Shown: one piece after another, positions 1,210-6,299 of the stretch
Layout: every line of letters starts with the position of its first letter
Position numbering within the stretch: position 1 is the first letter of the stretch
DNA from: Byssovorax sp.
Lineage (GTDB): Bacteria; Myxococcota_A; Polyangia; Polyangiales; Polyangiaceae
Direction of reading: 5' to 3'
Assembly: GCA_025362495.1 (NCBI GenBank)
Contig: JANYGI010000181.1
Coordinates: 1 to 32,434, forward strand
DNA length: 32,434 nucleotides
Made by a program: the position numbers and the translations under genes
Notes under the pieces: generated by a model
Seen by the model: only the letters and a program-made list of their open reading frames with translations
Told to the model about the DNA's origin: nothing
Database searches by the model: none

Positions 1210-1387
1210 GGGTATACAGCAAGCGGCGTTCCCGCGATCGAGATCGCGCAATCCCGCAGGTTTCAAGGTGAAATGGCGAGGCGCGGGCGCCACGGCGAGG
1301 CGTCGACGCCACTCCCCGGGCCGGGCGCGCGGAGACGCGGCTCGCGCGCCGGCGGGCGCCTGTGCTACCCCGGGGAGACGATCGTCG

Positions 1388-2584
1388 ATGCAGAGCTTCT
1401 ACCGCCGCCCGCTCCCCATCTCGCTCGTGGCCTTCTCGTCGGCCGAGGGCCGGGCGCTGTTCCGCGAGGCGCTCGACGACGGCACGATGGAAGGGTATTT
1501 CCCTCTCGCCGAGCAGTTTCACACCCAGGCCGAGCCGTCGTTCTGCGGCCTCGGCGCGCTGGTCGTGGTGCTCAACGCCCTCGCCATCGATCCTGGCCGC
1601 GCCTGGAAGGGGCCCTGGCGCTGGTACAGCGAAGAGCTCCTGGATTGCTGTCGTCCGCTCGACGCCGTGAAGCGTGATGGGTTGACGATGAGCCAGCTCC
1701 GCTGCCTCGCGCGCTGCAACGGCGCCGAGGTCGAGTCGTTCGCGGCGGACCGCAGCACGCTCGCGGAGCTGCGCGAGCACGTCCTCGCCGCGAGCCGCGC
1801 CGCCGACGGACCGCACGTCATCGCGGCCTATTCGCGCCGCGTCTTCGGGCAGACGGGCGACGGGCATTACTCGCCGATCGGTGGTTATCACCGCGGTCGC
1901 GATCTCGTGCTCTTGCTCGACGTGGCGCGCTTCAAGTACCCACCGCACTGGGTTCCTCTCGCCCTTTTGTGGGAGGCGATGGCGCCCGTGGACGCGATCA
2001 CCGGGCGGCCGCGCGGCTACCTGGTGCTGCGCCGGGGAGCCCAGCCGGACACCTCGATTTGCCGCCTCACGACCGAGCCCGAGGCGTTTCGCGCCGTGGC
2101 GACCGAGCTCGCGGGCGCGCTCCCCGAGGCCATCGCCGGTGCGCTGCCCGGCACGATAGAAGCCGTGATGGAGGCCTTCTTCGCGCGGCTCTCGCCCGCG
2201 GTCGCGGCGCTGCTCGCGACCCGCCCCGAGGCGACGTCCAGTGACGAGGCCGCGCCGCAGCGCGAGCGCCTCGACGCCGTGATGGCCGAGGTACGGCGGA
2301 CGGCGCTCTTCGAGGCCGTTCGCTGCGCGCTGGAGGGCCGAGCCTGGGGCGAGGGCTCGGCCGTGCAGCGCTTCCTCGACGAGAAAGAGCACCCGTTCGA
2401 GCTCGCCACGCTCCTCGTGCTGGCCTGTCCGCAAACGCTGTTCACCCGCTTGCCCGCGGCGCTCGGGGCCCGCCTCGAAGCCCTGCGCGCGCCCGCGGAG
2501 CTGCCCCCGGCCGTGCGCGCCGAGGTGGCTTTTCTGGCCGCGCAGATGTCCGCGCTCCGCGAGAGCTGCTGTCACCCGGCGTAG
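1388..2584 (+). CDS. pcs: Phytochelatin synthase, eukaryote-type, full length
   Basis: This 398-residue protein is a phytochelatin synthase (glutathione gamma-glutamylcysteine dipeptidyl transpeptidase, papain-like fold). The catalytic triad is Cys53 (in EPSFCGLGAL), His160 (in GDGHYSPIGGY) and Asp178 (in LLLDVARFKYPPHWV), at the same spacing as Cys56/His162/Asp180 of the plant enzyme. Cys87, Cys88, Cys106 and Cys110 match further cysteines of the plant enzyme. Most bacterial homologues are about 220-250 residues and lack a C-terminal domain. This one continues for about 180 residues with segments resembling the plant C-terminal domain (MAEVRRTALFEAV near 300-312; an LLVLACPQ segment near 340; a final ESCC). 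The ATG at 1388 follows GGGGAG at 1372-1377. An in-frame upstream start at 1193 would add 65 Arg-rich residues and is unlikely. The last 13 bases overlap the end of the opposite-strand membrane gene. Confidence 0.93.
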   Translation: MQSFYRRPLPISLVAFSSAEGRALFREALDDGTMEGYFPLAEQFHTQAEPSFCGLGALVVVLNALAIDPGRAWKGPWRWYSEELLDCCRPLDAVKRDGLTMSQLRCLARCNGAEVESFAADRSTLAELREHVLAASRAADGPHVIAAYSRRVFGQTGDGHYSPIGGYHRGRDLVLLLDVARFKYPPHWVPLALLWEAMAPVDAITGRPRGYLVLRRGAQPDTSICRLTTEPEAFRAVATELAGALPEAIAGALPGTIEAVMEAFFARLSPAVAALLATRPEATSSDEAAPQRERLDAVMAEVRRTALFEAVRCALEGRAWGEGSAVQRFLDEKEHPFELATLLVLACPQTLFTRLPAALGARLEALRAPAELPPAVRAEVAFLAAQMSALRESCCHPA

Positions 2585-3561
2585 GAGAGCTTCCATCGCG
2601 CCGCGCGCGCCGCGAGGAGGCCGCCCACGACGCCGCCGAGCACCCCTTTCCATGCCGCCATGATCGGCAGCGAGAGGCCCTCTGCACCCCCGAGCAGGGC
2701 CAGCACATAGCCGAGGATCCCCGCGGCGACGGCCGTCAGCGCGACGATACCCGCTCTCGCGAGGCGCCCCGGCGGCGTGCCCGAGGCCGCTCCGACGCGC
2801 CCCAATTTTCGATCGGTGCCCGCCAGATCGCCGGCGCTGAGCACCATGAAGAAGGCGATCACCAGCGCTGTGCTCATCGCGTCGAGCGCGACGTCGGTGG
2901 GCTTCAAGTTCGCCGCGCGCTCCGGGAACGTGCCAATCGCGGCGAGCGCGGCGATCACGCCGTTGCCCGCGCCCTGGGGCACCCCGAAGCGCGTCAGGTA
3001 ATAGCCCGTCGACGGCGCCGCCGCGGGCGCCGGGGGGATCTCCAGATCACCCAGGTGCCTGGCCCGCACCATCCACGCCGACTGGACCATGGCAATCACG
3101 CCCGCCATCCCGCCGAGCGCGAGGCAGAGATCTCCACGCGAGGGCAGGCCGGAGCGCTGGAGGTGAAGCTGCGCGAGCCCGGCCGCGACCAGCGCGACGA
3201 GGAGGCCGAGCCAGGTGCCATGAACCCAGATCGAGGCCAGCAGACCGCCGCGCGCCGGCGTCGCCCGACTGGCCTGCTCCTGCGCGGCCGGGAGCTGGAA
3301 GCGGCCGCTCGCGGCCTGATCGAGGAAGCCCGAGATCGCCCCCGAGAGGCCGAAGAACGGCACGAAGAAGGCCACCGTGCCCGCGAAGACCACCACCGCT
3401 CCCGGGGTGAGCCGCCCCGCCGCCGCGACGCCGAGCGAGATACCCGAGCAAATCCCGAAGACGAGCGCGAACCAGATCGCGCCGTTGATCAGCGCGAAGA
3501 CGAGCCGCAGCCCCGCAAAGGGGATGAGCTTGCGCGCCGGCCGGGCAATCGAGTCATCCAA
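2572..3561 (-). CDS. Polytopic membrane protein of unknown function
   Basis: This 329-residue protein has about seven or eight hydrophobic segments (roughly residues 20-45, 55-79, 107-130, 144-163, 197-212, 226-247, 268-290 and 298-319). Ala/Pro-rich loops fall near 90-105 and 170-185, and a charged, probably cytosolic, loop near 248-266. I recognise no family motif. The only sensible start is TTG at 3561. It overlaps the TGA of the upstream PIG-L gene by 8 bases (TTGGATGA), which suggests translational coupling and places this as the last gene of a five-gene run. Its 3' end overlaps the phytochelatin synthase gene by 13 bp tail to tail. It probably sits in the inner membrane. Confidence 0.75.
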   Translation of the reverse strand: MDDSIARPARKLIPFAGLRLVFALINGAIWFALVFGICSGISLGVAAAGRLTPGAVVVFAGTVAFFVPFFGLSGAISGFLDQAASGRFQLPAAQEQASRATPARGGLLASIWVHGTWLGLLVALVAAGLAQLHLQRSGLPSRGDLCLALGGMAGVIAMVQSAWMVRARHLGDLEIPPAPAAAPSTGYYLTRFGVPQGAGNGVIAALAAIGTFPERAANLKPTDVALDAMSTALVIAFFMVLSAGDLAGTDRKLGRVGAASGTPPGRLARAGIVALTAVAAGILGYVLALLGGAEGLSLPIMAAWKGVLGGVVGGLLAARAARWKLSYAG

Positions 3562-4417
3562 ACTGCGGCTCCTCCGGCGGGGCGCCCATCTGCTCCATCG
3601 CCATTTGCTGGTAGTTGTCGAAATGCCCCGGGCCCACGGGCAGGGCGTAAAAGCACTCGGCGATCTCGACCTTGCCGCCGTGGGCCATGGCCATCCCGCG
3701 GCCCATCCCTTCGAGGAACGTCTCGGCGCCGGAGCGGAGCTGCCTTGTCTGCTCGGCGGTGAGCGCGCGCGGATCGGCGCCCTTGACGAACCAGTCGGCG
3801 AGCATCTCGATCTGTGATTCGTGGCAGAGCGTGGCGGCGATCTTCGTGCTCAGCGTGCCGGCGATGTCGATGACGCGGTTGGGCTTGTGCTCGAGGGGGC
3901 CCATGTACCAGACCTCCTCCGGCTGCACGGGATCGAGCCCCGCGTCGAGGTGCTCGGGGTGGAGCAGCGGAAAGCAGGAGAACACCGCCGCCTCGGAGGC
4001 CATGCGACCGACGGTGAGGTGATCGGGGTGGATCTCGTAGCGCTTGTGGGGATCGAAGGTGAGCACGCGATCGGCGCGCAGGCGGCGGAGGTGATGAATC
4101 AGCCGCTCGCGCAGCTCCTTCCGATGGTCGATGAGGAACCCATCGGGGAAGCCGAGCAGGATCGGGGGCGCCGCGCCGATCACCGCGAGCGCGCTCGTGA
4201 GCTCGCGGGCGCGCGCGGCGGCGACCTCGCCCGGCGAGGCGTCGCGGCGCTTCGATCCGAGCGCGCCGTCGGTCGCGCAGATCGCGTGCACGTGGTGACC
4301 CTGCGCCGCCCACTTTGCGAGGCTGCCCGCGGCGTGAAACTCGCCGTCGTCGGGGTGCGCGTAGACGGCGACGATCGTGAGAGGGGCGGTCGCGAGCGAC
4401 CCGGCCGGCTGATCCAT
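3554..4417 (-). CDS. PIG-L family deacetylase
   Basis: This 287-residue protein carries the signature zinc motif of the PIG-L/LmbE family, AHPDD (residues 20-24; His21 and Asp24 as expected ligands, Asp23 as general base), and the second motif HPDH (130-133). Family members remove N-acetyl groups from GlcNAc-linked substrates, for example in mycothiol, bacillithiol, GPI or antibiotic biosynthesis. The fold starts directly at TIVAVYAHPDD, as usual, and the length is typical. The substrate cannot be predicted, and no glycosyltransferase lies next to it. The ATG at 4417 is 15 bases after the upstream lipoprotein gene. The TGA overlaps the TTG start of the downstream membrane gene, so the two are probably co-translated. 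Confidence 0.9.
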   Translation of the reverse strand: MDQPAGSLATAPLTIVAVYAHPDDGEFHAAGSLAKWAAQGHHVHAICATDGALGSKRRDASPGEVAAARARELTSALAVIGAAPPILLGFPDGFLIDHRKELRERLIHHLRRLRADRVLTFDPHKRYEIHPDHLTVGRMASEAAVFSCFPLLHPEHLDAGLDPVQPEEVWYMGPLEHKPNRVIDIAGTLSTKIAATLCHESQIEMLADWFVKGADPRALTAEQTRQLRSGAETFLEGMGRGMAMAHGGKVEIAECFYALPVGPGHFDNYQQMAMEQMGAPPEEPQFG

Positions 4418-5006: not shown

Positions 5007-6299
5007 TCACTTCGGGATCGGGCTGGTGATCACGGTGATCCCCGGCGTCGCCAGCCATTTCCAGCTGTCGATCAGCGTGGTCGAGTCGAGGATCCCATCG
5101 CTCGAATCGTAGACGACCCAGCGGAGGCTGATCTCCTGTCCCGGCTCGGCGGGCGCCCTGGTTTGCAGCCAGCCCGTCGAGCCATGATCGTAATGGAAAT
5201 CGTCGCTCGTGGTGTCGAATCCAAACCCCGTTCCCAGGAGATCCGCGTCGCCGAGGGCGCAGTCGAACACCATGCCTCCGCCGCCCTGGCAGGGGCCGCT
5301 CGGGGCGTTGGGGCAGCCGCAGACGTCGAGGAAGGCGTTATTGACGCTCACCGGGTTGCCCATGCTGTCGAACGAGATGTTGCCGTCGGGCTGCGCCGCC
5401 GGAGCGGGCGACAGCAGCGCGACGAAGAAGTCGTTGTAAGGGCTGCAGATGAAGTTCGGCCACTCGTAGGTGAAGAAGTCGAAGTCGAACGAGAAGCCGT
5501 GCGCGTTCGACGGCACGCGGACCTTGATCTCGACGGCGGCGACGTCGTGCGGATCGCCCGTCATCGTGTCGGGGCACGCCGGCGACTCTTCCGGGAAGCC
5601 GGGAGGGCTCTTGCCGCTGTAGCCTTTGTCGAAGCCGCTGACGTCGTGATAGCCGGGATCCGTCGGCGCCCGCGCCGAGCCGCTGGAGAGGCCGACCATG
5701 CGCTTTCCGGAGCGCACCTTGACGTTCGCGCCAAAGCCGGAGAGGAAGCCATGGCCGAGGTGAAAATTGGGGAGCTGGAGGGCCGTTGGCGGCGTCCCGT
5801 CGGCCATCACCCACGTTGACGAGACGACGCCCCAGTCCTTCGGACCCCTGGAGATCTTGCAGAGCTCGACGGCCTTTGGCACGTTCATCGGATCGAGATC
5901 GGCCACGTCGATCCCGTCGTCGCACGACGCCGCGGGGGGCTCGTCGATCGTGCCGTCGCAGTTCTCGTCCTTCGGCGCGCTCCCGTCGGCGGCGATCACC
6001 TCGACGGCGTTCGGGTTCGAGAAAGGATCGCAGTCGTCACAGTCACCCTGAGCCGGCGTGAAGCCGTCGCCGTCGACGTCGTCGCCCGGGCCGCCGGGGT
6101 TGCACACCGGGGGCGCGCCGCCCGCTCCCGTCGCGCCGGGCCCGCCGTCGAAGCCCACGTCGCCGCCGGCTCCCTCGGTCGAGGACGAGGACCCGAGTCG
6201 GCCGTCGGGGAAGCCTTGCGCCGGCCCGCTCGCGGAGCACGCCGCGAGCCCGAGCAGCAGGGGAGCGAGGAGGAGGCGGAGAGTCGGAGCGGTGCGCAT
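5007..6299 (-). CDS. MopE-type metal-binding / choice-of-anchor-like lipoprotein
   Basis: This 430-residue lipoprotein has lipobox LAAC (Cys21) followed by a Gly/Ser-rich linker (22-70). Residues about 74-120 carry the acidic pattern DVDGDGFTPAQGDCDD...NPNAVE...ENCDGTIDE, typical of the putative metal-binding (MopE-like) repeat common in myxobacterial surface proteins. Residues about 147-425 resemble choice-of-anchor-type secreted domains, with an aromatic core near 268-296 (GFSFDFDFFTYEWPNF) and conserved-looking Asp/Cys positions. The protein is probably surface-exposed and calcium- or metal-binding. The ATG at 6299 lies 14 bases after the stop of the upstream Cys-rich lipoprotein gene, so the two are likely co-transcribed. 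The exact ligand is unknown. Confidence 0.8.
   Translation of the reverse strand: MRTAPTLRLLLAPLLLGLAACSASGPAQGFPDGRLGSSSSTEGAGGDVGFDGGPGATGAGGAPPVCNPGGPGDDVDGDGFTPAQGDCDDCDPFSNPNAVEVIAADGSAPKDENCDGTIDEPPAASCDDGIDVADLDPMNVPKAVELCKISRGPKDWGVVSSTWVMADGTPPTALQLPNFHLGHGFLSGFGANVKVRSGKRMVGLSSGSARAPTDPGYHDVSGFDKGYSGKSPPGFPEESPACPDTMTGDPHDVAAVEIKVRVPSNAHGFSFDFDFFTYEWPNFICSPYNDFFVALLSPAPAAQPDGNISFDSMGNPVSVNNAFLDVCGCPNAPSGPCQGGGGMVFDCALGDADLLGTGFGFDTTSDDFHYDHGSTGWLQTRAPAEPGQEISLRWVVYDSSDGILDSTTLIDSWKWLATPGITVITSPIPK

Follow-up and report, generated by a model that had tools for sequence, protein, structure and literature searches.

The question raised by this locus is whether a full-length, plant-like phytochelatin synthase (PCS) in a myxobacterium was acquired from a eukaryote, and whether such an enzyme makes phytochelatins or only cleaves glutathione. 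The DNA analysed here, called the window, is a stretch of 32,434 nt from a 10.84-Mb genome. Our reading, to which we give a probability of roughly 0.7, is that the gene is a bacterial full-length PCS of the E-type (group 2), which would make PC2 and probably longer phytochelatins, and that plant PCS is derived from a bacterial two-domain enzyme of this sort and not the reverse.

The PCS gene occupies positions 1388..2584 (stop codon included) on the + strand, on which all parts of the gene described below also lie, and forms an uninterrupted ORF for 398 amino acids. A possible ribosome-binding site (GGGGAG, 1372..1377, + strand, recognised by eye) is found 10 nt upstream of the ATG. The papain-like catalytic domain (residues 4-211, 1397..2020) was identified both by Pfam and in the predicted model; the protein covers the whole 210-position profile of PF05023 with E=1.6e-85 and 286.1 bits (curated cut-off, 24.9). 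Solved structures found by sequence at E<=1 were those of Alr0975 only, and the AlphaFold model of the window protein (mean pLDDT 88.4) matched one of these (6tho_B) with Z 29.4 and rmsd 2.1 over 211 aligned residues at 29% identity, as expected of a papain-like fold. Judged from these sequence and model comparisons, the gene is a genuine full-length PCS with plant-type residues, in agreement with the first-pass annotation, and its catalytic domain is followed by a predicted folded C-terminal domain.

Conservation of individual residues was examined in alignments A2 and A3, which consist of the window protein and 42 of the 53 related loci whose product has 280 aa or more and whose ORF ends in a stop codon. 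The catalytic triad of Cys53 (1544..1546), His160 (1865..1867) and Asp178 (1919..1921) is intact, and each of the three is kept in 43/43 A2 rows. These residues correspond to Cys56/His162/Asp180 of AtPCS1, and the motifs Cys87-Cys88 (CC, 1646..1651; each in 42/43 rows) and Cys106-x3-Cys110 (CxxxC, 1703..1717; 42/43 and 43/43 rows) correspond to Cys90/91 and Cys109/113 (numbering of AtPCS1 from PMC11314372). The near-plant numbering of the triad and the four further plant cysteines, both pointed out previously from the sequence, were thus verified. Long near-identical stretches had also been noted, and DVARFKYPPHWVPL is indeed identical in the AtPCS1 sequence used, a non-database copy; 120 of 213 columns of the catalytic domain (56%) are identical to this copy. 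In the definition of group 2 (E-form) given in PMC11314372, Glu/Asp-Pro lies four residues before the catalytic Cys, the CC and CxxxC motifs are present and the proteins are separate from N-form PCS. The window protein has Glu49-Pro50 at this place (in A2, position 49 is E in 28/43 and D in 15/43 rows, and position 50 is Pro in 43/43) and all four of the motif cysteines, and its separation from N-form PCS is seen in the tree described below.

Thr46 (1523..1525), located seven residues N-terminal to the catalytic Cys and the counterpart of AtPCS1 Thr49, is T in 43/43 A2 rows, and the Thr-x-x-Glu/Asp context as a whole (1523-1534, residues 46-49) is kept in 43/43 members. For plant PCS, published work interprets this context as a site for casein kinase 2. 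Casein kinase 2 is not known from bacteria; if it is absent there, the motif is conserved for another reason.

Residues 213-398 (2024..2581) are predicted to form a helical C-terminal domain, whose best-conserved motif is at residues 379-390 (2522..2557; E379 in 41/43, Q386 in 43/43 and L390 in 39/43 A2 rows). When folded alone, the domain was again helical with a mean pLDDT of 89.1, and a Foldseek search of this model against PDB gave no match at E<=0.001 (best, 0.66). Resemblance of these segments to the plant C-terminal domain had been proposed from the sequence, and profile-profile comparison bears this out: the profile of 43 bacterial tails (window included) matched that of two plant tails (AtPCS1 and TaPCS1, both non-database copies) with a probability of 98% and E=3e-13 over 153 columns in order, against E of 0.95 for the reversed plant profile and 0.09-0.73 for five column-shuffled plant profiles. 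The match persisted when the bacterial profile was restricted to 10 cyanobacterial tails (E=1.8e-8), to 32 tails of other bacteria with the window left out (E=2.7e-9), or to 29 tails from outside the clade holding the plants (E=3.6e-9). The plain pairwise comparison of the window tail with the non-database AtPCS1 tail is weak by itself (score 50 with a shuffle mean of 30.9, equalled in 4 of 1000 shuffles), and the tails of L114, L068 and L073 gave low pairwise scores too.

Support independent of these non-database sequences comes from PF09328 (Phytochelatin_C), which matched 16 of the 43 A2 members at E<=0.01. Of nine bacterial PCS searched with this profile, seven matched at E<=10, at one or the other end of the profile, and L051 exceeded the curated cut-off (29.7 vs 25 bits). 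The window protein alone gave no match, either at E<=10 or, in another search, at E<=0.01. Over 377 Myxococcota genomes, no match of PF09328 was above the cut-off, and weak matches (E<=10) were found in 73 genomes, this genome not among them; a member-by-member scan was needed to see the domain. PF09328 is also reported not to be recognised in algal PCS (PMC12899622).

What distinguishes the window protein from the plant enzymes is the distance between the anchor motifs of this domain, which is 23 residues in the window protein vs 90 in AtPCS1 and 107 in TaPCS1 (non-database copies); it is 23 in L051 and 6 in L109. The plant-type Cys-rich segment with its twin-Cys metal sites is absent from the window PCS, and the Cd-binding pairs 351-352 and 369-370 of TaPCS1 (PMC7586750) fall within the missing segment. 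Bacterial C-domains of the 43 A2 members have 1 to 7 Cys, and a CC pair occurs in six of the 43; that of the window protein is at 394-395, not at the place of the plant segment. By these profile and motif comparisons, the segment 213-398 is a homologue of the C-domain of plants with the Cys-rich segment missing, and comparison with other bacteria suggests that this extra C-terminal part of the enzyme, often regarded as added on the plant side, was already present in bacteria.

The distribution of this architecture was surveyed by a scan of GTDB genomes with an E-type profile, in which the best 80 of 86 relatives gave 78 loci. Fifty-three of the 78 have a product of 280 aa or more and a stop codon, chiefly in Myxococcota and Cyanobacteria, 24 are shorter and one runs off its contig. 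By titles, 19 of the 78 are cyanobacterial, and the remainder are mostly Myxococcota or the old ‘Deltaproteobacteria’. Firm members from Pseudomonadota are fewer than the titles suggest. Most of them are short, as in Paucibacter (L088) and Rhodoferax (L128), and one gammaproteobacterial MAG (L099) carries a full-length PCS; L114 is titled Verrucomicrobiaceae, and L127 (36% identity, 214 aa) looks N-type. In the phylum of the window, 37 of 377 genomes had PF05023 above the cut-off, and for the phylum to which a Calothrix (G451) belongs the figure was 18 of 146. In the same family as the window, 20 of 108 genomes had a match at E<=0.001 in a protein search, weak ones counted. No viral PCS relative was confirmed in two scans of viral contigs. 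The first-pass annotation had stated that typical bacterial homologues lack the C-domain, which holds for the short N-type and fails for many other bacterial PCS. Since the full-length architecture is widespread in bacteria, ‘eukaryote-type’ as a statement of origin is unsupported.

Interspersed with the full-length proteins are short E-type PCS (L065, L088, L128, L097, L098, L101, L103, L118 and L122), a pattern that looks like repeated loss of the C-domain. The PCS of Polyangium and Sorangium (L067, L068 and L070) have a much shortened tail, with 304-314 aa in total, and in the alignment L067 retains only part of the C-domain.

The window PCS gene appears to stand alone. Upstream of it are genes for an FMN reductase (182-709, + strand) and, divergently, for a WXXGXW-repeat protein (807-1172, - strand), and downstream are a convergent ORF without a Pfam match and a PIG-L deacetylase gene (3554-4417, - strand). 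The ORF at 5007-6299 matched PF11617, a MopE-type putative metal-binding motif, weakly and below the cut-off (E=0.0071). No metal pump was recognised in the nine ORFs scanned up to 11865, no homologues of eight neighbour proteins from relatives were found within the window, and when the ORFs of 90 aa or more lying up to 4.5 kb from the PCS gene were compared with those of 74 other loci, none of them clustered.

Relatives have other neighbours. At L102, the PCS start is preceded at a distance of 19 nt by the end of a gene for a heavy-metal RND pump of the CusA/CzcA family (1013 bits, above the cut-off of 701), and at L051 an RND adaptor gene ends 91 nt upstream of PCS, with the TIGR01730 model above and the CzcB/NccB metal model below the cut-off. 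The RND gene near PCS at L059 fits a multidrug and not a metal model, so an RND neighbour is not always a metal gene. A heavy-metal P1B-ATPase like that of L053 was found in 11 of 79 sequences (the 78 loci from the best 80 of 86 relatives, and the window, which has none): nine cyanobacterial loci (several arranged alike, and one of them the locus that supplied the query), plus Sorangium L067 and L122. From a background of 96 matches in 19 genomes (about 164 Mb), about 0.6 would be expected vs these 11, with thresholds differing between the two counts. Two E-type PCS, L153 (AP018310.1) and L154 (AP018264.1), are carried by conjugative cyanobacterial plasmids, where they lie between two cation-transporting ATPases, with HlyD/RND and thioredoxin genes nearby; one of these plasmids is the record behind L057.

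Genes for ECF sigma factors are also found near PCS. That of L082 (1020-1616) overlaps PCS by 4 nt and that of L088 (5064-5960) lies 34 nt before it, both having SigZ as the best NCBIfam model, below the cut-off; tblastn added sigma-factor homologues at L095 (2705-2187, divergent from PCS) and at L128 (4401-4844, about 1.1 kb before PCS). An ECF sigma factor is a possible regulator of PCS. Some relatives have alcohol-dehydrogenase-like neighbours (by eye). The sigma-factor and alcohol-dehydrogenase-like contexts point elsewhere than to metal.

The direction of descent was examined in trees in which eukaryotes are represented by two plant sequences and an unverified nematode sequence, all three of them non-database copies. 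A catalytic-domain tree of 84 rows was built without L120, L121 and L124 (partial) and L058, L061, L062, L063 and L072 (near copies). In this tree, E-type PCS form one clade of 74 rows, including the three non-database eukaryotes, with support of 100/100 vs 10 rows used as the N-type outgroup, which are short sequences other than Alr0975. The window protein therefore does not fall inside the ordinary short bacterial PCS, and its tail is not unrelated to the eukaryotic domain, the two findings that would have spoken against the view taken earlier of this gene. Both plant rows are inside a 25-row clade (98/95) within the E-type, which is composed of the window, plants, cyanobacteria, Polyangium/Sorangium, L079, L114 and three Pseudomonadota rows, while the nematode row is outside it on a long branch. 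The 77-row tree additionally omitted the long rows L024, L029, L127, L114, L094 and the nematode, and the copy L005; plants again fell within a clade of bacteria, of 23 rows and with support of 98/91, and were separate from the window. When presence of the C-domain was mapped on this tree, eight changes were required, seven of them forced by starred branches, with short E-type rows basal. This would correspond to one gain and about seven losses of the domain, a count that depends on the root, which is on a long branch.

An origin of the gene by transfer from a green alga or plant relative into this myxobacterium lineage, with later loss of the Cys-rich segment, had been raised at the outset, and we consider it very improbable. 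It would fit the 56% identity with the non-database AtPCS1 copy and the pairing of window and plants in the best 84-row tree (59/57), where the alternative of uniting the window with cyanobacteria is worse by 2.1 log units (p-AU 0.154). Branching order within the 25-row clade is weakly resolved, however: plants with cyanobacteria gave p-AU 0.476 and the window with Polyangium/Sorangium p-AU 0.206, and the pairing is gone from the 77-row tree, where support for the order inside the 23-row clade is again weak. Rooted at its midpoint, the full-length tree (rows below 290 aa or lacking a stop, near copies, L057, L060 and L114 left out) pairs plants with cyanobacteria (98/84) and places the window outside, with the caution that 12 rows, namely both plants and ten cyanobacterial rows, were flagged for unusual letter make-up, which could draw plants and cyanobacteria together. 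Holding window, plants and nematode together costs 13.5 log units with p-AU 0.0945, which is not a rejection, and transfer from a eukaryote to the myxobacterium is rejected by none of the AU tests. Against transfer, too, the highest identity of the window PCS is to a myxococcal sequence (L073, 66%), and the gene has a GC of 72% and a GC3 of 90%, within the GC3 range (77-95%) of five other ORFs of the window. Since the non-database plant rows are nested in an otherwise bacterial clade, the transfer is unsupported.

Another alternative concerns function: the main role of the window PCS may be that of a gamma-Glu-Cys dipeptidase that turns over glutathione and glutathione conjugates, with phytochelatins as at most a side product. 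We regard this as unlikely, though less so than transfer. The short cyanobacterial enzyme is reported as a peptidase (PMC7411734, PMC12899622), extracts of Geitlerinema sp. PCC 7407 yielded phytochelatins in vitro at only about 0.1% of Arabidopsis levels (PMC7411734), and the window gene has no recognised metal pump beside it in the scanned range. On the other hand, the window protein is E-type and not N-type, some of its relatives adjoin metal-efflux genes, and the same Geitlerinema, whose PCS has 401 aa, raises PC2-PC4 under Cd in extracts and in vivo (PMC7411734). Because a cyanobacterium with a PCS of this length makes PC2-PC4 under Cd, phytochelatin synthesis is likely for the window PCS by analogy. 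In the open-licence literature, no report of activity was found for the window protein or any Myxococcota homologue.

The genome has a gene for glutathione synthase (TIGR01380, 351 bits; cut-off, 299) and a gene resembling a plant-type glutamate-cysteine ligase (TIGR01436, 436 bits, under the cut-off of 463), and a gshA of the PF04262 type gave no match. Glutathione synthase was matched in 75 of 75 sampled Myxococcota genomes (70 above the cut-off) regardless of the presence of PCS, and is therefore uninformative on linkage. For a bacterial full-length E-type PCS, the reading preferred here, the reaction would be as follows. Cys53 would attack glutathione with release of glycine, and the gamma-Glu-Cys unit would be passed to a second, presumably metal-bound, glutathione to give PC2 and probably longer peptides. 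A rising load of Cd, Cu, Zn or As may be the trigger, and the C-domain may stabilise the enzyme and modulate how it responds; the twin-Cys metal brake known from plants would be missing.

Much of this framework is already known from cyanobacteria. The E-forms described there measure 394-400 aa and carry a C-terminal extension, and a C-terminal domain is reported both for green-algal E-forms and for those of nearby cyanobacteria (PMC11314372, 2024); with the 2020 report on Geitlerinema (PMC7411734), this means that long bacterial PCS, a C-domain common to green algae and bacteria, and cyanobacterial phytochelatins were all known before. Earlier papers describe all cyanobacterial PCS as being without the C-domain (PMC7586750, 2020) or repeat that cyanobacterial PCS lack it and that plants may have gained it by fusion (a review of 2023, PMC9917255), and the view for cyanobacteria was corrected in PMC11314372. 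In open-licence papers, we found none on a Myxococcota branch of PCS, on a match between bacterial tails and Phytochelatin_C or on the missing plant segment, and, judged by titles, no report of a myxobacterial PCS.

The window PCS is like the cyanobacterial E-forms in length, in Glu/Asp-Pro before Cys, in CC and CxxxC, in the C-terminal extension and in the clade common to both in trees; it differs in belonging to another phylum, and cyanobacterial A2 rows are 43-48% identical to it over the full length. The Geitlerinema PCS, compared by description, is of similar length. With the plant PCS (AtPCS1 and TaPCS1, non-database copies) it has in common the triad, the four extra Cys, a homologous C-domain and, for AtPCS1, the catalytic identity given above, and it is unlike them in the short spacing of the anchor motifs. 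Alr0975/NsPCS, a short N-type enzyme, has the same catalytic fold, whereas it is without the C-domain and, according to PMC11314372, without the CC/CxxxC cysteines.

On balance, we favour a history in which the ‘regulatory’ C-domain of plant PCS was a bacterial invention, a helical domain gained once and early in E-type PCS, lost several times, spread partly with metal-resistance islands and passed to plants together with the catalytic domain, and in which the Cys-rich metal-responsive segment alone was inserted afterwards. If true, this would replace the proposal of a short cyanobacterial enzyme that gained its Cys in plants and was fused there to a C-domain from the plants' own or another genome. 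The bacterial family supplies natural enzymes having the C-domain scaffold without the Cys-rich segment, as well as close relatives without the C-domain; with natural enzymes that have or lack each piece, the long-debated role of each piece becomes directly testable. The isolated carriers Sorangium, Polyangium and Nannocystis are places to look for bacterial phytochelatins.
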